Positions 13,196 through 57,110 of a stretch of 64,000 nucleotides of DNA are shown here, piece after piece. The notes beneath the pieces were generated by a model. That model saw only the letters and a list, made by a program, of their open reading frames with translations. It searched no databases and was not told the origin of the DNA. Position numbers and translations under genes: made by a program. This stretch comes from Pseudoflavonifractor sp. Marseille-P3106 (GTDB taxonomy: Bacteria > Bacillota > Clostridia > Oscillospirales > Oscillospiraceae): positions 1 to 64,000 of the forward strand of contig LT827120.1 of NCBI GenBank assembly GCA_900169975.1, in the 5' to 3' direction. The first letter of the stretch is position 1. Each line of letters opens with the position of its first letter.

Positions 13196-13201
13196 TATAA
13201 T
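13196..13201 (+). promoter_or_regulatory. -10 element upstream of the first Moco riboswitch
   Basis: TATAAT at 13196-13201 would place the transcript start at about 13208, exactly where the aptamer begins. The -35 region (near 13173-13178) is weak. Confidence 0.5.
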
Positions 13202-13206
13202 ACTGA

Positions 13207-13301
13207 TTCTCCGAGCCTGTCTGCCTACGGCGTTTCGCTAGGGCAGTCCGGCCTGGGTTCTGCTGGAAACGGCGGGGCCTTCCGTGCTTGAAAAGGAGAG
13301 A
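13207..13301 (+). promoter_or_regulatory. Candidate Moco riboswitch upstream of mobB operon
   Basis: About 95 bases that resemble the Moco RNA family: a P1 stem TCTCC/GGAGA (13208-13212 with 13295-13299), then CGAGCC, internal GGAAAC, and the conserved 3' end TTGAAAAGGAGAGA. A second copy with the same landmarks lies upstream of modA, which supports a shared conserved RNA rather than chance. It is followed by a strong terminator and the mobB ribosome site. The family (known to sense molybdenum or tungsten cofactor and control Moco genes) is assigned by eye, so a covariance search would be needed to prove it. Confidence 0.75.
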
Positions 13302-13335
13302 CCGCCGGGACGCAGACCTTCTGCGCCTCCAGTTG

Positions 13336-17500: not shown

Positions 17501-17514
17501 TATAAAATCCCGCA

Positions 17515-17608
17515 ATCTTCGAGCCCGTCCGTCCTAAAGCCCCGGCCACGGCGGCGGGCCAATGGGTGCGTCCGGAAACAGGCGCGCCTTCCGTTTGAAA
17601 AGGAGAGA
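17515..17608 (+). promoter_or_regulatory. Candidate Moco riboswitch containing the modA Shine-Dalgarno
   Basis: A second copy of the RNA at 13207-13301: TCTTC/GGAGA P1 pairing (17516-17520 with 17602-17606), CGAGCC, GGAAAC and the same TTGAAAAGGAGAGA end. Here the 3' P1 strand is itself the modA ribosome site (AAGGAGAG, 17600-17607, six bases before ATG), and no terminator intervenes. Ligand binding should therefore block translation of modA. A TATAAA at 17501-17506 would start transcription at the aptamer's first base. Confidence 0.75.
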
Positions 17609-17613
17609 ATACG

Positions 17614-18432
17614 ATGAAAAAGCACCTCATTTCCGCCCTGTCCCTGGCCCTCTGTCTGGGCCTCACCGCCTGTTCCGGCGGCGGCGCCGCCCCCTCCGCC
17701 ACACCCGCGCCCTCCGAATCCGCCGCTGCGGCCGCAGGGCCTGTGGAGCTCCACGTCTTTGCCGCCGCCTCCCTGAAGGAGGCCCTTACACAGATCGGGG
17801 AAAACTACAAGGCCGTGGCTCCCAACGTCACCCTCACCTTTACCTTCGACTCCTCCGGAACCCTTCAAAAGCAGATCGAGGAGGGAGCCGCGTGCGACCT
17901 CTTCCTCTCCGCCGCCCAGAAGCAGATGAACGCGCTGGCGGAGGGCAAGTACATCGACGAGGCCTCCCGGATCGACCTGCTGGAAAACAAGGTGGTCCTG
18001 GCCGTCCCCGAGGGCAACCCCGCCGGGGTCAGCGCCTTTGAGGATGTGAACACCGACAAGGTGAAGATGATCGCCCTGGGCAACTCCGACGTCCCCGTGG
18101 GCCAGTACTCCGAGGAGCTGTACACCTCTCTGGGCATTTGGGATGCCATTCAGGGCAAGATCACCTTCGGCTCCAATGTAAAGGAAGTCACCACCTGGGT
18201 CGGCGAGGGCACCGTGGACTGCGGCGTGGTCTACGCCACCGACGCCCACTCCGCCGGACTGGAGATCGTGGCCGAAGCTGACCCCGCCCTGCTCACCAAC
18301 AAGGTCGTCTACCCCGCCGCCATCCTCTCTGCCTCCACCCACGCCGACGACGCCAGGGCCTTCCTGGACGATCTGACCGCCGCAGACAGCGTGGCCGTGT
18401 TCCAGTCTGTGGGCTTTGCCATGGCGAACTGA
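17614..18432 (+). CDS. modA: Molybdate-binding lipoprotein
   Basis: A 272-residue ModA. It has a lysine-rich signal peptide with lipobox LTAC, a low-complexity Ala/Ser/Pro linker to about residue 42, then the molybdate-binding domain beginning VELHVFAAASLKEAL, in which AAASL provides the first oxyanion contacts; TFDSSGTLQKQ supplies the second. Anchored outside the membrane, it delivers molybdate (or tungstate) to ModBC. Its ribosome site lies in the second Moco riboswitch, so uptake should fall when cofactor is plentiful. A hairpin follows the stop. Confidence 0.95.
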   Translation: MKKHLISALSLALCLGLTACSGGGAAPSATPAPSESAAAAAGPVELHVFAAASLKEALTQIGENYKAVAPNVTLTFTFDSSGTLQKQIEEGAACDLFLSAAQKQMNALAEGKYIDEASRIDLLENKVVLAVPEGNPAGVSAFEDVNTDKVKMIALGNSDVPVGQYSEELYTSLGIWDAIQGKITFGSNVKEVTTWVGEGTVDCGVVYATDAHSAGLEIVAEADPALLTNKVVYPAAILSASTHADDARAFLDDLTAADSVAVFQSVGFAMAN

Positions 18433-47662: not shown

Positions 47663-47803
47663 CTCTGCCTCAGCGTGACGATATACGCTGGTACAGAACG
47701 TTCTCAGCCGCCCGATTCAACGGACATACTCCGCGGAAGTTACCGGCTTGCGCCGCAATCTCCCGCATCATCGCATAATGCGCCCCGAAACAGGCACTGG
47801 GGT

Positions 47804-48806: not shown

Positions 48807-50210
48807 TCAGGTATTCTCTTCCAAAGCCTTCCGGGCCGCGGCCTTGGCCTTTTCCACATCCAGCGCCTCTCCGGTGAAGTGCTCCAATGCCAAAATGGCC
48901 TGGTGGAGAAGCATCCCCATCCCATTCATGACGGGATGGCCCAGTTCTCTGGCCCGGCGGAGCAGCGCGGTCTCCGCCGGAGCGTAGATCACATCGCACA
49001 CCGCGGCCCCGGCGGGCAGGGCGTCCACAAAGGACAGATCCTCAAACCCCCTGCCGGTCCCCGCCATTCCAAGGCAGGTGCAGTTGACCAGCATGTCGCT
49101 CTCCCCGGCGACCCTGCGCAGCGTCTCCGGATCAAACCCCTCCGGGGTCAAATTGGGCCGGTCGGCTGCGCACAGCGCCTGCGCCTTTTCCAATGTCCGG
49201 TTGCACACGGTGACCGCGGCCCCAGCTCCGGCCAGCGCCAGCGCCACGGCTTTGGCGGCGCCTCCCGCGCCCAGCAGGATCACCCGCTTCCCCGCGGGAT
49301 CCACCCCCAGCTCGGCCAGCGCCCGGAGAAACCCGCCGCCGTCGGTGTTGTAGCCGTAATATTTTCCGTCTCGAAGGCAGACGGTATTCACCGCGCCGCA
49401 CCGCCGGGCCGCCTCGTCCACCTCGTCCATCAGGGGGAACAGCTCCTCCTTGTGGGGCATGGTGGCGTTGAACCCGGCATATCCCGCAAAGGCGGCACAT
49501 TCCAGCCAGCGCCGGGTCTCACCCCGCGGCACCGGCTGGCAGAGGTAGATATAGTCCAGGCCCAGGGCCTCGATCATGGCGTTCTGGATCACCGGCGATT
49601 TGGAGTGGAGCACCGGGTCCCCAATGACGCAGAGCTTCCGGGTGGTATTTTTCACTTCCACGCGCATGTCTCTCTTCTCCTTCTCTTCCGTCTGGATCGG
49701 CGCGGGCAGGGCGGCGTTGACCAAAAAGGCCACGGCCACTCCCACCACCGTTTCGATGATCCGGGCGGCGGCATAGTCAACCCGGGATGCGCCGGTGACG
49801 CCGGTGACCAGCATGGCGCAGGGGACAATGCTGGCCATGGCGCAGGCGGCGGGCCGCCGGATCAGCTGACAGATCCACAGTCCCGCCACGCACACCGCCC
49901 CCAGGGTGGGCACCAAGACCAGGGGGGAATCCAGCCGCTCCCCCAGCAGCAGGGCGGCGGCTCCCAGCGCACCGCCCACCAAAACGCCCATAAACCGGGA
50001 GATCCCCTGCTGCACCGTCTGTCCCAGACTGCTCTGGGTACATACAATGCAGGCAATGCAGGCATAAAGCGGGCCAATACAGCCCAGCACTCCCCCCCGG
50101 GCCTCGTCATACAAAAGGCCAAAGGGGACGAACAGCAGATAGGAGATCATCACCGCCACGGCGGTCTTGATGACCCGCATCCCCACCCGGGGCACCCTCG
50201 GGTTGGTCAT
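48807..50210 (-). CDS. aroE: Fusion: aromatic acid exporter (FUSC-like) membrane domain - shikimate dehydrogenase
   Basis: A single open frame of 467 residues. Residues 1 to about 172 have five hydrophobic stretches and resemble the short aromatic-acid-exporter/FUSC domain. From residue 182 it is AroE: HSKSPVIQN, NATMPHKEELF (catalytic lysine), YNTDGGGF and GAGGAAKAV. No stop separates them; the linker EEKEKRD is itself encoded by a purine-rich AAGGAG ribosome site, with an in-frame ATG at 49667. So either one fused membrane-bound enzyme or two products from one frame are made. AroE reduces 3-dehydroshikimate to shikimate. Confidence 0.8.
   Translation of the reverse strand: MTNPRVPRVGMRVIKTAVAVMISYLLFVPFGLLYDEARGGVLGCIGPLYACIACIVCTQSSLGQTVQQGISRFMGVLVGGALGAAALLLGERLDSPLVLVPTLGAVCVAGLWICQLIRRPAACAMASIVPCAMLVTGVTGASRVDYAAARIIETVVGVAVAFLVNAALPAPIQTEEKEKRDMRVEVKNTTRKLCVIGDPVLHSKSPVIQNAMIEALGLDYIYLCQPVPRGETRRWLECAAFAGYAGFNATMPHKEELFPLMDEVDEAARRCGAVNTVCLRDGKYYGYNTDGGGFLRALAELGVDPAGKRVILLGAGGAAKAVALALAGAGAAVTVCNRTLEKAQALCAADRPNLTPEGFDPETLRRVAGESDMLVNCTCLGMAGTGRGFEDLSFVDALPAGAAVCDVIYAPAETALLRRARELGHPVMNGMGMLLHQAILALEHFTGEALDVEKAKAAARKALEENT
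49667..49684 (-). promoter_or_regulatory. Internal ribosome site and start for stand-alone AroE
   Basis: AAGGAG nine bases before an in-frame ATG at 49667 would start a 286-residue AroE of normal length. This favours separate production of soluble AroE from the longer frame. Confidence 0.6.
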
Positions 50211-50245
50211 GTCTTTCCTCCCTCTTTATCCGGCCGGAAGCGCCT

Positions 50246-50677
50246 TCAGCCCTCCCGCGCCAGAAAATAATCCATGGCGGCCTCGTAGCCGTACAGCCCC
50301 AGCCCGCAGATCTGACCCACGCAGGCGGGCGCGGTGACACTCTTGTGCCGGAACTCCTCCCGCTGGTGGATGTTGGAGATATGCACCTCCACGCAGGGAA
50401 CGCTCACCGCCTTGAGCGCATCCAGGATGGCCACGCTGTAATGGGTGTAGGCCCCCGGATTCATGATGATGGCGTCATAGACCCCGTCGGCGGCCTGGAT
50501 GGCATCCACGATGGCCCCCTCGTGGTTGGACTGGAAGCACTCCGCCGTGGCACCGCGGGCCTCGGCCCGCACCTTCAGCCGGGCGCAGAGACTTTCATAG
50601 TTCTCCTCCCCGTAGATCCCCGGCTCACGCCTGCCCAGCAGATTCAGGTTGGGCCCGTTGATGATGAGAAATTTCAT
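50246..50677 (-). CDS. aroQ: 3-dehydroquinate dehydratase, type II
   Basis: A 143-residue AroQ. NGPNLNLLGRREPGIYG (with the catalytic tyrosine), the loop arginine, and the HISNIHQREEFRHKS segment (catalytic histidine region) are present. It dehydrates 3-dehydroquinate. Start at 50677, overlapping the aroK stop as ATGA, 35 bases before the fusion gene. Confidence 0.96.
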   Translation of the reverse strand: MKFLIINGPNLNLLGRREPGIYGEENYESLCARLKVRAEARGATAECFQSNHEGAIVDAIQAADGVYDAIIMNPGAYTHYSVAILDALKAVSVPCVEVHISNIHQREEFRHKSVTAPACVGQICGLGLYGYEAAMDYFLAREG

Positions 50678-51165
50678 TCCAATCCCTCCAGCACTCTCGC
50701 CGCCGTGGAAATGGGCGAGGTAAAATCGGTGACTGTCACATCGGCCCACCGGCGGTAGGTCTCCTCCCGCCGGGCGGCCTTCGCCAGGAAGGCCTCTCTT
50801 CCCCCCCTGGCCAGCGGGCGGCCCTCCATGGACACATGGTCGTAGATCTCTCCGGCGTCCCGGTTCAGCCAGAACACCGTGCCGCTCTCCTTCAGAGGGG
50901 CCATGGCCGTCTCCCGCAGGGGCAGGCCGCCGCCGCAGGCGATGATCAGGCCGCTGCGCAGCGAAAGGCCCTGCGCCACTCCCACCTCGAGAGAGCGGAA
51001 GTAGTCCTCCCCCTGGGTGGCGAAGATCTCCTCCACGGTGAGGCCCTCCCGGGCCTCGATGAGCTTGTCGGTGTCCACCAGGGTCTTTTTCAGCCGCCCG
51101 GCCAGAAGCTGGCCCACGGTGGACTTGCCCGCGCCCATCATCCCGATCAAAACAATGTTTTTCAT
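50674..51165 (-). CDS. aroK: Shikimate kinase
   Basis: A 163-residue P-loop kinase, GMMGAGKST (9-17), DTDKLIE for shikimate binding, and GGGLPLR. It phosphorylates shikimate. The ATG at 51165 overlaps the pheA stop (ATGA) and has CAGGGGG upstream; it overlaps aroQ in the same way. All catalytic residues expected are present. Confidence 0.95.
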   Translation of the reverse strand: MKNIVLIGMMGAGKSTVGQLLAGRLKKTLVDTDKLIEAREGLTVEEIFATQGEDYFRSLEVGVAQGLSLRSGLIIACGGGLPLRETAMAPLKESGTVFWLNRDAGEIYDHVSMEGRPLARGGREAFLAKAARREETYRRWADVTVTDFTSPISTAARVLEGLE

Positions 51166-52319
51166 TCCTGATACCCCCTGAAATTGCCCAGCACCCGGAA
51201 GTCGGCGGAGAGCTGGCTCAGCTCGTGGAGCACCCCGTCCATCCCGGGAGCCAGCAGATCGCCGGAGCACTCCAGGAAGAACAGGTAGTCCCACCCCCGG
51301 TCCGGGATGGGCCGGGACTCGATCTTCAGCAGATTGAGGCCGTGGACGGCGAAGATGGTCAGGATCTCGTGGAGGGAGCCTGCCTGATGGGGCAGCGAAA
51401 AGAGGGCGGAGATCTTGTCTCTCCCCTCCCGCAGCTCGGGCACGGGGGACACCGCCACAAAGCGGGTGTGGTTGGCCGAGTTGTGGTTGATCCCCTCGGC
51501 CAGAACGTCCAGCCCGTAGAGCCGGGCGGCCCGCCGGGAGCAGATGGCCGCCGCCGTCCGGTCCCCGGTCTCCTTCACCTGCTTGGCCGACCCGGCGGTG
51601 TCCAGGGTGGGCACCCGCCGCCAGGCACGGTGGGCGTCCAAAAACCGGTCGCACTGCATCAGGCCCTGCTCATGGGAGTAAACGGTCCGGATCTCCTCCA
51701 GCCCCACACCGGGGAGCACCGCCAGGCAGTGCTCCACCTTGACCTGCCACTCCCCCACCAGGGAGAAGTCGTACTGGGCCAGCAGGTCATAGACCTGGCG
51801 GATGGAGCCGGTGGAGGAATTTTCAATGGGAAGCATGGCGTAGTCGGCCTCGCCGCCGGCCAGCGCACGGAACACGTCTCCGAACCAGGCCAGGCCCCGG
51901 GCGGACACGCCCTCTCCGAAAAATCCCGCGGCAGCCTCCTCGCTGTATGCCCCCGACTCACCCTGATAGACCACCCGGGGGTTCGCCACCGGCTCCCGGC
52001 GGCGCTCCAGCGCGCTGAGCCACCGGGCATAGCCCGCGTCCTCCGCCCCCTCCCGCACCAGGGCGCGCTGCTGGCGGCGGGAAATAGCCATGACGCTCTC
52101 GTAGAGGGCGGCCACGTCGGCCTTGGCGGCGGGGGTGTCGGCCAGGGCTGTCTTGGCGGCGATGACCTGCCGCTCCCGGGCGCTGTCCAGCACCGGGATG
52201 CCCCGCTCCTTTTTATACTCTCCCACTCGCCCGGTCACCGCCATCCGGCGAAGGAAGAGGGGAACCAGCTGGCCGTCGATCTCGTCGATCTCCCCGCGCA
52301 GCTCATCCAGTTGAGACAT
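51162..52319 (-). CDS. pheA: Bifunctional chorismate mutase / prephenate dehydratase (P-protein)
   Basis: A 385-residue P-protein. Residues 1 to about 90 are an AroQ-type chorismate mutase (DELRGEIDEID, FLRRM). The dehydratase domain starts at YQGESGAYSEEA, with the NHTRF motif; the C-terminal ACT domain (from about 300) contains KIESRPIPDRGWDY, the Phe-binding ESRP segment, so feedback inhibition by phenylalanine is expected. The ATG at 52319 has AAGGAG nine bases upstream. It makes phenylpyruvate for phenylalanine. Confidence 0.95.
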   Translation of the reverse strand: MSQLDELRGEIDEIDGQLVPLFLRRMAVTGRVGEYKKERGIPVLDSARERQVIAAKTALADTPAAKADVAALYESVMAISRRQQRALVREGAEDAGYARWLSALERRREPVANPRVVYQGESGAYSEEAAAGFFGEGVSARGLAWFGDVFRALAGGEADYAMLPIENSSTGSIRQVYDLLAQYDFSLVGEWQVKVEHCLAVLPGVGLEEIRTVYSHEQGLMQCDRFLDAHRAWRRVPTLDTAGSAKQVKETGDRTAAAICSRRAARLYGLDVLAEGINHNSANHTRFVAVSPVPELREGRDKISALFSLPHQAGSLHEILTIFAVHGLNLLKIESRPIPDRGWDYLFFLECSGDLLAPGMDGVLHELSQLSADFRVLGNFRGYQE

Positions 52320-52362
52320 GGGTATCCGCTCCTTTGTTTTCAAATCCTGCCCCAGAGGCAAT

Positions 52363-53406
52363 TCAAATCCCCAGCACCTCGCACGCCGCCAGGGCCGCCG
52401 CCGCCTCGATCACCGGCACCGCCCTCGGCACGATGCAGGGGTCGTGGCGGCCCTTGATCTCGATCTCCACTTCCTCCCCGGTGCGCAGGTCTACGCTCTC
52501 CTGGGGGAGAGAGATGGAGGGCGTGGGCCGCAGGGTCACCTCGAACACCACCGGCATCCCGTTGGTGATGCCGCCGTTGACTCCCCCGGCGTTGTTGGTC
52601 TTTGTGGCGATCTGCCCGTCCCGCGCCTCAAAGGGGTCGTTGGCCTCGGTGCCCTTAAGATAGGCGAAGGCCACTCCCGCGCCGAAGGCCACCGCCTTGA
52701 CGGCGGGGACGGCGAAGAGATATTGAGAAAAAATGCCCTCCACGTTGCAGCCAAAGTCGGGCTGGCCCAGTCCGGCGGGCAGGCCGGTGACGGCGCACTC
52801 AATCGAGCCGCCCACCGAATCCCGGCCCTCCTTGGCCTCCCGGATGGCCCGGCGCATCTCCTCCCCCTTTTCCTCGTCCAGCACGGGGAAGTCCTTTTCC
52901 GCCAGCGGGAAGAGTTCGGCGGGGTCATCGAAGGCAGAGTCGTTGACTCCGTAAATGGAGCTGATATGGGCCCCCACCCGGACGCCCCGCTGGGCCAGCA
53001 GCTGCTTGGCCACCGCCCCCGCCGCCACCAGCGGCGCGGTGAGCCGCCCGGAGAAGTGCCCTCCTCCCCGGTAGTCCAGGCAGCCCCGGCTGCGGACAAA
53101 TCCGGCGTAGTCCCCGTGGCTGGGCCGGGGGGTATAGCGCAGGGCCTCGTAGTCCCCGGAGTGCTGGTCACCGTTTTCGATGACCATGGCCAGCGGCGCG
53201 CCGGTGGTCTTGCCCTCAAAGACGCCGGAGAGGATCTTTACCTCGTCGGCCTCCTTCCGGGCAGTGGAAAACTCATTTTTCCCCGGGGCCCGGCGGCCCA
53301 TCTCCTTTTGCAGCCGGTCCAGATCCAGGCTCAGGCAGGAGGGCACCCCCTCCAGCACCACGCCGATGGCGGGGCCGTGGGATTCCCCGAAAATCGTATA
53401 TCTCAT
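52363..53406 (-). CDS. aroC: Chorismate synthase
   Basis: A 347-residue FMN-dependent enzyme that converts EPSP to chorismate. FGESHGPAIG near the N-terminus, the YRGGGHFSGR segment and NNAGGVNGGITNG are present. It starts 33 bases after aroA and is followed by pheA. AAGGAG precedes the start. The step lies directly after the broken aroA, which matters for the pathway. Confidence 0.96.
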   Translation of the reverse strand: MRYTIFGESHGPAIGVVLEGVPSCLSLDLDRLQKEMGRRAPGKNEFSTARKEADEVKILSGVFEGKTTGAPLAMVIENGDQHSGDYEALRYTPRPSHGDYAGFVRSRGCLDYRGGGHFSGRLTAPLVAAGAVAKQLLAQRGVRVGAHISSIYGVNDSAFDDPAELFPLAEKDFPVLDEEKGEEMRRAIREAKEGRDSVGGSIECAVTGLPAGLGQPDFGCNVEGIFSQYLFAVPAVKAVAFGAGVAFAYLKGTEANDPFEARDGQIATKTNNAGGVNGGITNGMPVVFEVTLRPTPSISLPQESVDLRTGEEVEIEIKGRHDPCIVPRAVPVIEAAAALAACEVLGI

Positions 53407-53439
53407 ACCGTCATTTCTCCTTCCGCGCAGGGCGTTTTT

Positions 53440-54692
53440 TCACACCCCGGCGAGCTTTCCGCCCAGGCGGGCATAGTCCTCCCAAAAGTCGGGGTAGGAT
53501 TTGCGGACGCTCTCCGCCCCGGTGAGGGTCACAGGCGCGGCGCACCGGGTGGCGGCCACGGCCGCCATCATGGCGATGCGATGGTCGTTGTGGCTGTCCG
53601 CAGTCCCGCCGGAGAGGGTCTCCACTCCGACAACGGTCAGGCTGTCCGGTCCCTCGGTCACCCGCGCCCCCAGGCGGTTCAGCTCCTCCCGGACGGCGGC
53701 GAGCCGGTCGCTCTCCTTGATGCGGAGCCGTCCGGCATTGACGATGCGGGTGATCTCCCCCGCCCGGAGGGCGGCGTGAACCGCCAGGGCGGGCACCAGG
53801 TCGGGGCACTGGGACACGTCCAGCTCCACCGTCCCGCCTCCCCGCAGCAGCTCTTCATAGGGGACGATCCGTCTGTCCCCCTGGGTCGAACGGGGATCCA
53901 TCCCGGTGACCTCCACCGGGTTGCCCAGCCCCCGGGCGGCATACCAGAACCCCGCCTGGGACCAGTCGGCCTCCACGGCGGCCTCCGCCGCGCGGTAGAC
54001 CTGCCCGCCGGGCACGTCCAGGGTGCGGTCGTCCCGCCACGCCGCCTTCACGCCGAACGCGGCCAACGCCTCCAGCGTCATGTCCACATAGTTCCGGGAT
54101 TCCAGCTCCGTGGTCAGCACGATGGCGGAATCCCCCTCCAGCAGCGGCAGAGCGCAGAGCAGGCCCGTGACAAACTGGGAGGACACGTCCCCGGGAAGGC
54201 GGTACTCCCCCGGAGACAGCAGCCCCCGGATCGTGAGCACCCCCTCCTTTTGCCCGTAAAAAATCCCCTTTTCCGCGAAGAGATCAAAGAAGGGTTTCTG
54301 GGGACGCTCCATCAGCCGCCCCCGCCCGGTAAAGATCAAGAACCGGTAAAGATCCCCCCGCCCCGTATCGCAAGGGCCACCGGGATCAAAAATCGGAGGG
54401 TGGAGCCCGACTCGCCGCAGTCCAGCCTGGGCAGCGCCAGCCGCCGGAGGGGGGACATGGCCCCCGCATCCAGCCCGGTCAGATGCAGCGTCCGCCCCGC
54501 CCTTCTGTACTCCGCCCCCAGCTCGGTCAGGCAGCGGAGGGTCGCCTCCATGTCCTGGGACTGGGCCACGTTGGTGAGCGTGCTCTCTCCCGCCGCCAGG
54601 GCGGCGGCGATGAGCACCCGGTGGGCCTGGGATTTGGAGGGGGGCGGGGTAATGGCCCCGGCAAGCCGGGCAGGGGTAATGGTAACGGTCAT
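53440..54692 (-). pseudogene. aroA: EPSP synthase, interrupted by a 17-bp insertion
   Basis: The N-terminal 118 residues (ATG 54692, AAGGAG before it; PSKSQAHR motif present) are cut off by a TGA at 54338. A second frame begins at a TTG at 54339 and continues 299 residues with the rest of the enzyme (GDVSSQF, SDRL, HNDHRIAMM, KSYPDFW), ending at 53440. At the junction CCGGTAAAGATC occurs twice (54326-54337, 54343-54354) with AAGAA between, a 17-bp unit; its removal restores one 411-codon frame. TGA and TTG overlap as TTGA, so limited reinitiation is possible. Confidence 0.85.
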
Positions 54693-54723
54693 GGGCGTTC
54701 TCCTTTGTTCCATGGTTTCAGCC

Positions 54724-55785
54724 TCACAGAAGCTCCAGCAGCGCGGCCTTGGGCATTTTGTGGGGGATGGCCCGCCCCAGTTCGGCCAGCAGGATGAGGG
54801 AGATGTCCTCCCCTTCTCCCTTTTTGTCCCGGCCGACGGCGGCGGCATAGTTGTCCCGGGCGCAGGGAATGGCGGTGGGCAGCCCGAGAGCGGCCAGCGC
54901 CTCCTCCACCTGTCCGGGCACCTCCGGAGGCGTGATCCCCAGGGTCACACCCACTCGACAGGCGGCAGCCATTCCTGCGGCCACCGCCTGGCCGTGGGTC
55001 CAGGTTTCGTAGTGTCCCGCCAGCTCATAGGCGTGGCCCAGGGTGTGTCCAAAGTTCAGGAGCATCCGTTCCCCGGTGTCCCGCTCGTCCGACTCCACCA
55101 CCTGCCGTTTGATGTCGCAGCAGGTGTACAAGACCGGCTCGATCTCTGCCATGATCTCCGCCCGGGACGGGCGGGCACGGAGGAAGTCAAAAAATTCCCG
55201 GTCCCGGATGCAGCCGTATTTGATGACCTCGGCCATGCCGTCGGCAAAGGTGGAGTCGGGCAGGGTGGCCAGCGTGTCGGTGTCCATGAGCACCAGCTTC
55301 GGCTGCCAGAAGGCCCCAGCCAGATTCTTCCCGGCCTTCAGATCCACCGCCACCTTGCCCCCAACGGAGGAATCCACCTGGGCCAGCAAGGTGGTGGGGA
55401 TCTGGATGAAGTCCACCCCCCGCAGCACGGTGGCGGCGGCGAAGCCGGCCAGATCCCCCACCACGCCGCCGCCCAGAGCGATCACGGCGTCGGTGCGGGT
55501 GAGTGGAACGTCCATCATCTGTTCCCACAGTTCAGAGAGCTGTCCGGCGCACTTGGAGCTCTCCCCGGCGGGGATGACGTGCCGGGCCACTTCAAACCCG
55601 GCCCCTGTCAGGCTCTCTTCCAGCTTTCGGGCGTAGAGGGGGGCGACATGGCTGTCCGTCACCAGAAAAAGCCGTCCGGCCCGGGGGCAGACCGCCCGGA
55701 CGGCGGCCCCGGCTCCGGCCAGCAGGCCGGAGCCGATGTGGATCTCATAGGAGCGGCGCTCCAGCGCCACTGTGAGGGTTTTCAT
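54724..55785 (-). CDS. aroB: 3-dehydroquinate synthase
   Basis: A 353-residue NAD- and zinc-dependent enzyme making the first carbocycle of the pathway. GGGVVGDLAGF (NAD loop), DSSVGGKVAVD and the LLNFGHTLGHAYE metal-site segment are all present. The ATG at 55785 has AAGGAG eight bases upstream. It lies 27 bases after aroF and 31 bases before aroA. Confidence 0.96.
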   Translation of the reverse strand: MKTLTVALERRSYEIHIGSGLLAGAGAAVRAVCPRAGRLFLVTDSHVAPLYARKLEESLTGAGFEVARHVIPAGESSKCAGQLSELWEQMMDVPLTRTDAVIALGGGVVGDLAGFAAATVLRGVDFIQIPTTLLAQVDSSVGGKVAVDLKAGKNLAGAFWQPKLVLMDTDTLATLPDSTFADGMAEVIKYGCIRDREFFDFLRARPSRAEIMAEIEPVLYTCCDIKRQVVESDERDTGERMLLNFGHTLGHAYELAGHYETWTHGQAVAAGMAAACRVGVTLGITPPEVPGQVEEALAALGLPTAIPCARDNYAAAVGRDKKGEGEDISLILLAELGRAIPHKMPKAALLELL

Positions 55786-55812
55786 GGGGAACACTCCTTT
55801 TTGCGAACCGGT

Positions 55813-56832
55813 TTATTTGATCAGGGTCTTCCCCACCATATCCACCAGTGCGGAGACCTTGCCCATCAGGCCGTCAAAGCGCTCTGGGGTCAGGGACTGC
55901 TGGCCGTCGCACTTGGCGTTGGCGGGGTCGTTGTGAACCTCGATGATGAGGCCGTCCGCCCCGGCGGCCACTGCCGCCAGCGCCAGCGGCTCCACCATCC
56001 AGTACATCCCGGCGGAGTGGGAGGGATCCACCACTACGGGCAGATGGCTCATCCGCTTCACGGCGGGGATGGCGGAGACGTCCAGGGTATTGCGGGTGTA
56101 GGTCTCAAAGGTGCGGATGCCCCGTTCGCAGAGGATGACGTTCTCATTGCCCTCGGCCATGATGTACTCGGCCGACATGATCCACTCCTCGTAGCTGTTG
56201 GCCAGCCCCCGCTTGAGGAGGATGGGCTTGGACATCTTGCCCACCTCCTTCAGGAGGTCAAAATTCTGCATGTTCCGTGCGCCGATCTGCACCACGTCCA
56301 CCTTGTCCTCGAAGAGCTGGCAGTACTTGGGGCTCATCAGCTCGGTAACCACGGGCAGACCGGTCTCCGCCTTGGCGGCCAGCAGCAGGTCCAGCCCCTC
56401 CGGCCCCATGCCCTGAAAGGAGTAGGGAGATGTGCGGGGCTTGAACGCGCCGCCCCGGAGCATGGCCGCGCCGGAGCGCTGGACGTCCCGGGCCACCTCG
56501 GCGATCTGCGCCTCGCTCTCCACAGAGCAGGGCCCGGCAATGACGGAGAAGCTGCCGCCGCCGATGCTGGCGCTCCCCACATGCACCACGGTATCCTCAG
56601 GGTGGAACTTGCGGTTGGCCTTTTTATAGGGTTCCTGCACCCGCATGACCCGCTCCACGTGCTCGTTGATGGCGATCTTGTCCATGTCCACGGCGGTGGT
56701 GTCCCCCACCAGGCCCAGGATGGTGCAGCCGATGCCGTTGGTGACCCCCACCTGAAGTCCCTGGAGCTGGAACCGGGCCACCAGCTTGTCGATCTCCCGC
56801 TGCTGTGTGCCCGGCTTCATCACTACTACCAT
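55813..56832 (-). CDS. aroF: 3-deoxy-7-phosphoheptulonate synthase
   Basis: A 339-residue type I-beta DAHP synthase, the entry enzyme. The catalytic barrel starts near SFSVIAGPCSVES and includes KPRTSPYSFQG, LKRG and DPSHS. The first 70 or so residues form a ferredoxin-like regulatory domain, so feedback control by an aromatic amino acid or prephenate is expected. It is the first structural gene, 31 bases after the leader terminator, with AAAGGAAG upstream. Confidence 0.95.
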   Translation of the reverse strand: MVVVMKPGTQQREIDKLVARFQLQGLQVGVTNGIGCTILGLVGDTTAVDMDKIAINEHVERVMRVQEPYKKANRKFHPEDTVVHVGSASIGGGSFSVIAGPCSVESEAQIAEVARDVQRSGAAMLRGGAFKPRTSPYSFQGMGPEGLDLLLAAKAETGLPVVTELMSPKYCQLFEDKVDVVQIGARNMQNFDLLKEVGKMSKPILLKRGLANSYEEWIMSAEYIMAEGNENVILCERGIRTFETYTRNTLDVSAIPAVKRMSHLPVVVDPSHSAGMYWMVEPLALAAVAAGADGLIIEVHNDPANAKCDGQQSLTPERFDGLMGKVSALVDMVGKTLIK

Positions 56833-56856: not shown

Positions 56857-56897
56857 AAAAAAGGGGGCTCATTGATGATGAACATCAATGAGCCCCC
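56857..56897 (-). terminator. Attenuator terminator in the aro leader
   Basis: Perfect 15-bp stem (56863-56877 with 56883-56897, five-base loop) and six T residues on the minus strand (56862-56857), between the leader peptide and aroF. A second hairpin (56916-56938, nine pairs with one wobble) lies directly after the leader stop codon. Confidence 0.95.
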
Positions 56898-56940
56898 TCC
56901 AGAGTACGGGTATTCCTGTCCGCGGATCACGCGGGCAGCC

Positions 56941-57048
56941 TCATTTCGTCCATCCTTTTTTGCCCATGCCAAAATAGCCGGCGCCCATAAATCGAGCCCA
57001 GCCAAAGGAGGTAAAAAAGGATGCAGTTGTGAGGGCGGATCGGTTCAT
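56941..57048 (-). CDS. Aromatic-rich leader peptide of the aro operon
   Basis: A 35-codon frame with five Phe (11, 12, 15, 20, 26), two Trp (17, 33) and one Tyr (25): the middle reads SFFTSFGWARF then GYFG. A GAGG lies six bases before the ATG. It stands about 30 bases after the promoter and 43 bases before a strong terminator, the geometry of ribosome-mediated attenuation. When aromatic aminoacyl-tRNAs are scarce, ribosomes should stall here and prevent termination. The antiterminator pairing was not identified by eye. Confidence 0.8.
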   Translation of the reverse strand: MNRSALTTASFFTSFGWARFMGAGYFGMGKKGWTK

Positions 57049-57081
57049 GTCTGGACCTCACTCTTCGGAAATGTTAGAACT

Positions 57082-57110
57082 ATTATATACCCCACTGAAA
57101 AAAAAGGCAA
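57082..57110 (-). promoter_or_regulatory. Promoter of the aro operon
   Basis: Minus-strand TTGCCT (57110-57105), a 17-base spacer with a T8 tract, TATAAT (57087-57082). Transcripts would start near 57075 and first encode the leader peptide. Confidence 0.8.

Follow-up and report, generated by a model that had tools for sequence, protein, structure and literature searches.

The 64,000-nucleotide stretch of DNA analysed here, referred to as the window, comes from the gut bacterium Pseudoflavonifractor sp. Marseille-P3106 (contig LT827120.1, positions 1 to 64,000) and carries an operon of the order aroF-aroB-aroA-aroC-pheA-like-kinase-like-aroQ-aroE, called type 1 below (Table 1). Its first gene encodes DAHP synthase, the enzyme with which aromatic biosynthesis begins. 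The pheA-like and kinase-like genes score under the curated NCBIfam cut-offs (205.6 bits against 219, and 104 against 204, respectively), and aroB, aroC and pheA lie downstream of a type 1 aroF in all four relatives fetched. The aroA gene (EPSP synthase) is found in two frames (54848-54336 and 54339-53440, reverse strand), the frame breaking at a direct repeat of 12 nt with 17-nt spacing (54326-54354, reverse strand); the split may be either a broken gene or an assembly fault. Other RNA elements of the window are two riboswitches of the Moco (molybdenum/tungsten cofactor) class, separated by about 4 kb on the forward strand (13197-13314 and 17505-17621) and an S10-Clostridia ribosomal protein leader on the reverse strand (47708-47779), before the L3 gene side of the window.

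Table 1. Features of the aroF leader and operon in window coordinates, with the leader of the other DAHP synthase operon in this genome
Feature	Position	Strand	Basis or remark
Promoter-like site TTGCCT-17-TATAAT	57082..57110	-	consensus scan
Shine-Dalgarno GTGAGG of leader ORF	57056..57061	-	sequence
Leader ORF MNRSALTTASFFTSFGWARFMGAGYFGMGKKGWTK	56941..57048	-	35 codons: 5 Phe, 2 Trp, 1 Tyr; stop TGA 56943-56941
Region 1: CCTCA 57034-57030 and CATCCTTTTTT 57023-57013	57013..57034	-	pairs with region 2 in MFE fold; arm-permutation test, 75 loci
Inner hairpin H2: GGCUGG.GCUC / GGGC.CCGGCU, loop CGAUUUA	56976..57003	-	fold, covariation, covariance-model matches
CGA-UUU (Arg-Phe) codon pair in H2 loop	56989..56994	-	codon alignment of 75 leaders
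Predicted RNA polymerase pause: T-tract at 56976-56971, RNA 3' end expected at T 56966, followed by G 56965	56965..56976	-	inferred from column counts and published geometry
Region 2: AAAAAAGGATG 56961-56951 and AATGAGG 56945-56939 (contains stop codon)	56939..56961	-	fold and comparison
Antiterminator element AATGAG within region 2		-	positional comparison with stop codon in relatives
Small hairpin CUG.CCGCG / CGCGG.CAG directly after stop	56916..56938	-	fold
Region 3, terminator 5' arm GGGGGCTCATTGATG	56883..56897	-	CTCATT 56892-56887 can pair with antiterminator element
Region 4, terminator 3' arm CATCAATGAGCCCCC and T6	56857..56877	-	sequence, fold, script
aroF, DAHP synthase, first operon gene	55813..56832	-	NCBIfam, over cut-off
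aroB, aroA (two frames), aroC, pheA-like, shikimate-kinase-like, aroQ, aroE	48807..55794	-	NCBIfam
Tyr-rich type 2 leader of second DAHP synthase operon (L002)	contig C18, 321721-321796		

An earlier note on this DNA had described a promoter, a short aromatic-rich frame, a hairpin at its stop codon and a terminator upstream of aroF, and all four are confirmed from the sequence. The -10-like TATAAT (57087-57082), with TTGCCT 17 nt upstream, gives 10 of 12 consensus matches, where shuffled sequence holds 0.3 such sites on average, and TATAAT is also the consensus at the same place in 75 aligned relatives. The terminator, GGGGGCTCATTGATG-TTCAT-CATCAATGAGCCCCC-T6 (56897-56857), is a perfect 15-bp helix with -32.7 kcal/mol for the stretch and a fold z of -8.9 against 200 dinucleotide shuffles. 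A pattern scan for terminators gave none at the leader site; the call is based on sequence, fold and a separate hairpin script. From the leader stop codon to the aroF start there are 108 nt, and the leader as a whole is much more stably folded than its shuffles (z -5.5). Two features had been missed in the earlier note, namely a long helix inside the frame that pairs 57023-57013 with 56961-56951 and nucleotide-level conservation within the frame. No Rfam family matches the leader site at the gathering score, riboswitch models included, and the matches below it are weak, chance-level and to unrelated families. The earlier remark that no T-box is present agrees with the absence of an RF00230 match over threshold at this site; elsewhere in the genome there are 14 T-box matches, four of them over the gathering score.

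For comparison, 109 loci with an aroF N-terminus were collected, yielding 95 distinct upstream regions, and further upstream regions were added from the family (60), from other families of the order (40) and from other orders of the class (40). The loci were picked from match lists and are non-random, the last two sets holding one or a few per family. A leader was defined by a Shine-Dalgarno sequence, 14-50 codons and at least 6 aromatic residues within 16 codons, in the last 320 nt before a DAHP synthase gene. This rule is satisfied at 112 of 149 distinct family loci, 25/40 loci from other families and 21/40 from other orders, compared with 0/149, 1/40 and 3/40 on the reverse strand and 2/447, 2/120 and 1/120 on shuffles. 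Earlier runs agree closely (the family count there, 117/154, included a few loci twice). Within the 95 distinct upstream regions, 76 passed the strict rule, and several of the failures are leaders that miss the Shine-Dalgarno requirement or are cut by contig ends. By eye, ten of the 95 have no convincing leader (L013, L028, L060, L062, L064, L071, L077, L090, L094 and L096). Close relatives with a terminator and no aromatic-rich frame, which the earlier note took to speak against its proposal, are approached in a few of these: in L071 and L077, and more doubtfully in L013 and L060 (aroF 80-82% identical), an unrelated short GC hairpin is seen by eye near aroF. Since the leader is found in part of the loci only, such leaders are common but not universal. 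The GC hairpin of L060, L071 and L077 is accompanied by a T-run.

The reading frame is conserved in its own right. An aligned set of 77 rows left out L002, L106, L107, L115, L117, identical cores, loci without a core (including L078) and N-containing sequence (L004); removal of the type 2 rows L128 and L142 gave the 75-row set used below, of which 50 rows form the covariation alignment and 40 a first view. These loci were selected by nucleotide core and not by ORF, and an in-frame start is present in 75/75, as ATG with a Shine-Dalgarno sequence in 74; the available sequence of the remaining locus, L008, starts too late to show one. Over a fixed stretch, stop codons interrupt the leader frame in 1 of the 75 loci and the other two frames in 18 and 26. 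The aromatic fraction is 0.225 in frame, compared with 0.087 and 0.155 in the other frames.

The long helix, termed 1:2, joins a 5' part CCUCAC...GCAUCCUU to a 3' part AAGGAUG...AUGAGG. Over the 75 loci a leader's own arms pair with a mean of -20.7 kcal/mol, against -16.95 +/- 0.35 for permuted arms (lowest of 2000 permutations, -18.48), in a test that, like the shuffle tests, ignores relatedness. Own arm pairs beat every distant swap in 18/75 loci, 12 of the listed pairs do not stand out, and the support for the helix is a group result. In L116, L025, L017 and L063 the pairing is made by quite different sequences. The antiterminator element is the part used by the best duplex with the terminator arm in most of 71 listed loci (L014, L023, L043 and L076 are not counted because the script chose another hairpin there). 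Of these 71 loci, 64 have an [AG]TG[AG]G element between -10 and +24 relative to the stop codon, against an expectation of 20.7 in shuffles, and CTCA[TC] is found in the terminator 5' arm of 68/75 loci. Duplex energies are modest (mean z -1.3 against shuffles; below -2 in 17/71), and the support for the 2:3 pairing comes from position and conservation rather than energy. Because the leader's TGA stop in the window falls inside the antiterminator element, a ribosome terminating there would cover the element.

The locus thus combines an aromatic-rich leader ORF predicted to be translated, a terminator before aroF and mutually exclusive 1:2, 2:3 and 3:4 pairings with region 2 overlapping the stop codon. 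The alignment of relatives' leaders, which the earlier note had recommended as a check, has the aromatic frame conserved and the 1:2 helix covarying. Ribosome-mediated attenuation, as proposed there, is well supported by comparison through the frame, its aromatic codons, the 1:2 helix, the antiterminator element at the stop codon and the terminator.

Very probably, the aroF leader acts as a ribosome-mediated transcription attenuator whose main input is charged Phe-tRNA. From the frame, the helices, the antiterminator match and the pause-like spacing, all established by comparison, we infer the amino acid sensed, the stalling, the pause and the on/off outcome as follows. With ample Phe, the leader ribosome would reach the TGA inside AAUGAGG and mask the element, the 3:4 terminator would form, and the aroF-...-pheA operon would be off. 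When Phe-tRNA is scarce, the ribosome would stall at Phe codons in or just after region 1 and leave region 2 free, and the free AAUGAG would pair with CUCAUU of the terminator 5' arm, allowing the operon to be transcribed. In an untranslated leader, the 1:2 helix would form and the operon would stay off. The hairpin inside the ORF, followed by the T-tract and T/G, would most likely pause RNA polymerase, keeping ribosome and polymerase in step.

The leaders sort by sequence patterns into two types that differ in composition. Type 1 leaders (n=71) have on average 5.04 Phe, 1.32 Tyr and 0.90 Trp codons, and type 2 leaders (n=17) have 5.12 Tyr, 2.47 Phe and 0.24 Trp. Both occur in the genome under study, whose second DAHP synthase is 63% identical to the first and is preceded by the type 2 leader MNFGLWHGYCDSYRYYDSGFLPCP, with a GTG start, its own hairpin, a T-tract and conserved GC-rich terminator arms. 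A tyrA-like gene follows this second DAHP synthase; it matches the prephenate dehydrogenase family (E 6e-49), other models being less similar, with all matches under the curated cut-offs. A relative of this gene lies downstream in all 16 further type 2 loci fetched, in L316 after about 1.15 kb. Sensing of Phe for the pheA operon and of Tyr for the tyrA operon fits this gene content.

Conservation among the 75 codon-aligned leaders acts at the nucleotide more than at the codon level, third codon positions being as conserved as second positions, or more so, at many columns. For instance, the residue at column 23 varies between A, F, T, S and Y and the third-position C is kept. The conserved core is the inner hairpin H2. 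In 50 sequences, H2 has 31 doubly changed cells compared with 11.0 +/- 4.5 in shuffles (0/500 as high), and its true register pairs 83.3% of cells compared with at most 60.0% for slid registers; a second register fits part of the sequences. Searched with an H2 covariance model, the own genome has a single strong copy and 45 of 250 family genomes have one each, and all 45 family matches were traced upstream of aroF (29 from earlier locus coordinates, 16 fetched). Order-wide, 15 of 295 genomes match, 13 of them family members and 2 weakly elsewhere. The weak matches, in G417 and G469 of another family and in the own genome (E 0.47, read as L209), have no aroF in the stretches fetched. No conserved partner for the CGAUUUA loop, be it a T-loop, kissing or pseudoknot contact, was seen by eye; AAAUCG lies downstream in 2/11 of the non-type-1 loci with CGATTT.

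The loop of H2 holds the codon pair CGA-UUU in frame. CGA makes up 73/73 aligned Arg codons and is followed by TTT in 74/75 rows, counts that are partly circular because the rows were chosen by an R-F peptide pattern or CGATTT. Synonymous changes at both codons are nearly absent. CGA is rare in ordinary genes: eight genes of the window use it for 5 of their 183 Arg codons, and relatives' aroF for 22/1077. The pair recurs in leaders of other shapes (L106, L117, L118, L226, L231, L233, L240, L248 and L253 among them) and in L267 and L290 from other orders. In non-type-1 leaders, Arg is encoded by CGA in 13/23 cases before Phe, 0/21 before Tyr or Trp and 3/122 elsewhere, a bias with a Fisher probability of 4e-10 that ignores relatedness, spans about seven lineages by eye and skips four type-1-like names. 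Of the CGATTT occurrences in these leaders, 16 are in frame and 6 are not, and several other codon pairs are more enriched than CGA-UUU. Literature cited on CGA-UUU as a stalling pair is a B. subtilis paper (PMC10454642, in the part available). Simple attenuation does not explain the nucleotide-level conservation of CGAUUUA.

Because third codon positions are so conserved, a riboswitch has to be taken seriously. The conserved inner hairpin, its CGAUUUA loop and a U-rich bulge would bind a small molecule, and the ORF would be secondary or incidental. Such an RNA would be in keeping with a core conserved at the nucleotide level, the covarying H2 stem and its single copy per genome, before one gene. 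Its probability is lowered to very unlikely because the frame, start codon and Shine-Dalgarno sequence are kept in 74 or 75 of 75 loci and the hairpin is found only before type 1 aroF among the family matches traced; moreover, other leader types with a different RNA still keep aromatic frames, and Rfam gives no match at gathering score. Peptide similarity across many genera might instead point to an arrest peptide, like TnaC, in which an aromatic amino acid would cause the nascent chain, with its conserved FGWARFMGAGFFGM-like stretch, to stall the ribosome. We find this scarcely credible in view of the nucleotide-level pattern, in which residues vary where bases stay (column 23) and CGA and TTT show few synonymous changes.

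The identity of the amino acid sensed is a separate matter. According to the earlier note, the leader would gauge Phe, Tyr and Trp together; codons for all three are present in the window's leader, and the TGG codon is kept in 57/75 aligned leaders, with Tyr or Phe instead in 11. This part of the earlier proposal is unsupported, since gene content and leader composition make a three-amino-acid gauge unlikely. The operon has a pheA-like gene, type 1 leaders are rich in Phe (mean 5.0, compared with 0.9 Trp per leader), and a separate Tyr-rich leader serves the sister operon with tyrA. The trpE, trpC and trpA families have no match in the own genome (99.15% complete), whereas 14/14 control genomes matched each; judging from these searches, Pseudoflavonifractor sp. 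Marseille-P3106 is probably a Trp auxotroph. The TGG codon belongs to the H2 stem and may be kept for pairing. Furthermore, C. glutamicum aroR, with its Phe-Tyr-Phe run, answers to Phe limitation only, according to the portion of PMC11802643 available. The reading preferred here remains an attenuator governed mainly by Phe-tRNA.

Downstream of H2, the type 1 leaders (n=75) share a fixed series of bases, with T at +1 in 67, a free base at +2, T at +3 in 66 and TTT at +4 to +6 in 71, 73 and 72, followed by T at +11 in 62 and G at +12 in 72. Type 2 leaders (n=19) carry a different hairpin (CCGCUAUUACGAUAGCGG in several) and have T at +4 to +6 in 15, 18 and 13, T at +11 in 13 and G at +12 in 15. 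The exact tract TTNTTT occurs in 29/75 type 1 and 3/19 type 2 leaders, and at least 5 T of 6 in 64/75 type 1 leaders. Residues of the genome's own NusG, which reads VRNIRGSTGFVG, are assigned through what we take to be its alignment to B. subtilis NusG. At the two recognition residues named in a review (PMC12288461), N is kept and T is not. In NusG-dependent pauses of B. subtilis, as described in the accessible part of that review, the hairpin precedes the RNA 3' end by 11-12 nt and TTNTTT occupies -11 to -6, and the spacing of the leader's hairpin, T-rich tract and T/G fits this geometry. A pause of this kind is used by vmlR, an antibiotic-sensing uORF leader of B. subtilis (PMC9226507, as excerpted). 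Unlike those B. subtilis pauses, the pattern here lies inside a leader ORF, the tract is often TATTTT, and the pause is predicted from sequence. On this spacing, an RNA polymerase pause signal is most likely written into the leader frame.

A broader proposal is possible but doubtful. The leader would be doubly coded, the same bases serving as a Phe-control frame, a 1:2 helix and a polymerase pause signal that dictates codon choice (CGA-UUU, UNU-UUU, NTG). The in-frame CGA-UUU would be a control codon pair, an inosine-read Arg codon in the P site sharpening the response to scarce Phe-tRNA, and in many Clostridia the paired DAHP synthase operons would each be governed by a pause-and-stall leader specific for its own amino acid.

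Of the DAHP synthase genes sampled across Clostridia, between roughly half and three quarters have an aromatic leader in front. Phe control of the pheA operon and Tyr control of the tyrA operon through separate leaders would amount to a division of labour within one genome, which E. coli obtains by repressors and feedback-specific isozymes. The nucleotide-level constraint in the leader ORF makes the idea of a polymerase pause inside the coding sequence of an attenuator open to direct test.

Among the matches listed, a literature search whose coverage leaves most subscription journals outside gave nothing on such leaders in Oscillospirales or other Clostridia. The aroR leader was reportedly described in Corynebacterium glutamicum by Neshat et al. 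in 2014. As far as the available excerpts go, this leader of the C. glutamicum aroF operon is the experimental precedent, an aromatic leader peptide before DAHP synthase at which ribosome stalling at Phe codons raises transcription (PMC11802643, PMC4046766). It has a short Phe-Tyr-Phe control run and belongs to an actinobacterium, the two sets being compared by description only, as far as the excerpts describe aroR. Unlike aroR, the leader described here spreads at least five Phe codons along its frame, is paired with a Tyr leader on a second operon and is conserved at the nucleotide level within the ORF. The pheA and trp attenuators of E. coli (pheL, trpL; PMC11802643, in part) differ in belonging to other genes and another phylum and in having their control codons in runs. 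They share with it a leader peptide, alternative 1:2, 2:3 and 3:4 helices and a terminator. A further likeness is the prediction uORFC-13-1, a uORF with Phe codons, promoter, ribosome-binding site and terminator before the aroF (DAHP synthase) gene; the accessible text (PMC8632094) lists 24 sequences from Acholeplasma and unnamed environmental sources only, and the comparison is again by description only. Amino-acid leaders of regular form outside Proteobacteria are represented by the his-gene leader peptides of some Firmicutes, which replace T-boxes and differ in concerning histidine and other genes (PMC2965389, PMC9413887, both as excerpted); leader-peptide attenuation in Firmicutes is treated as an exception in the portion of PMC2965389 available. 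For Actinobacteria, the part at hand of a 2005 survey (PMC1262725) reports no RNA element before phenylalanine or tyrosine operons. Set beside these systems, the kind of switch at the aroF locus is classical, and the leader family, its Tyr counterpart in the same genome and the hairpin inside the small, unannotated leader gene appear undescribed.
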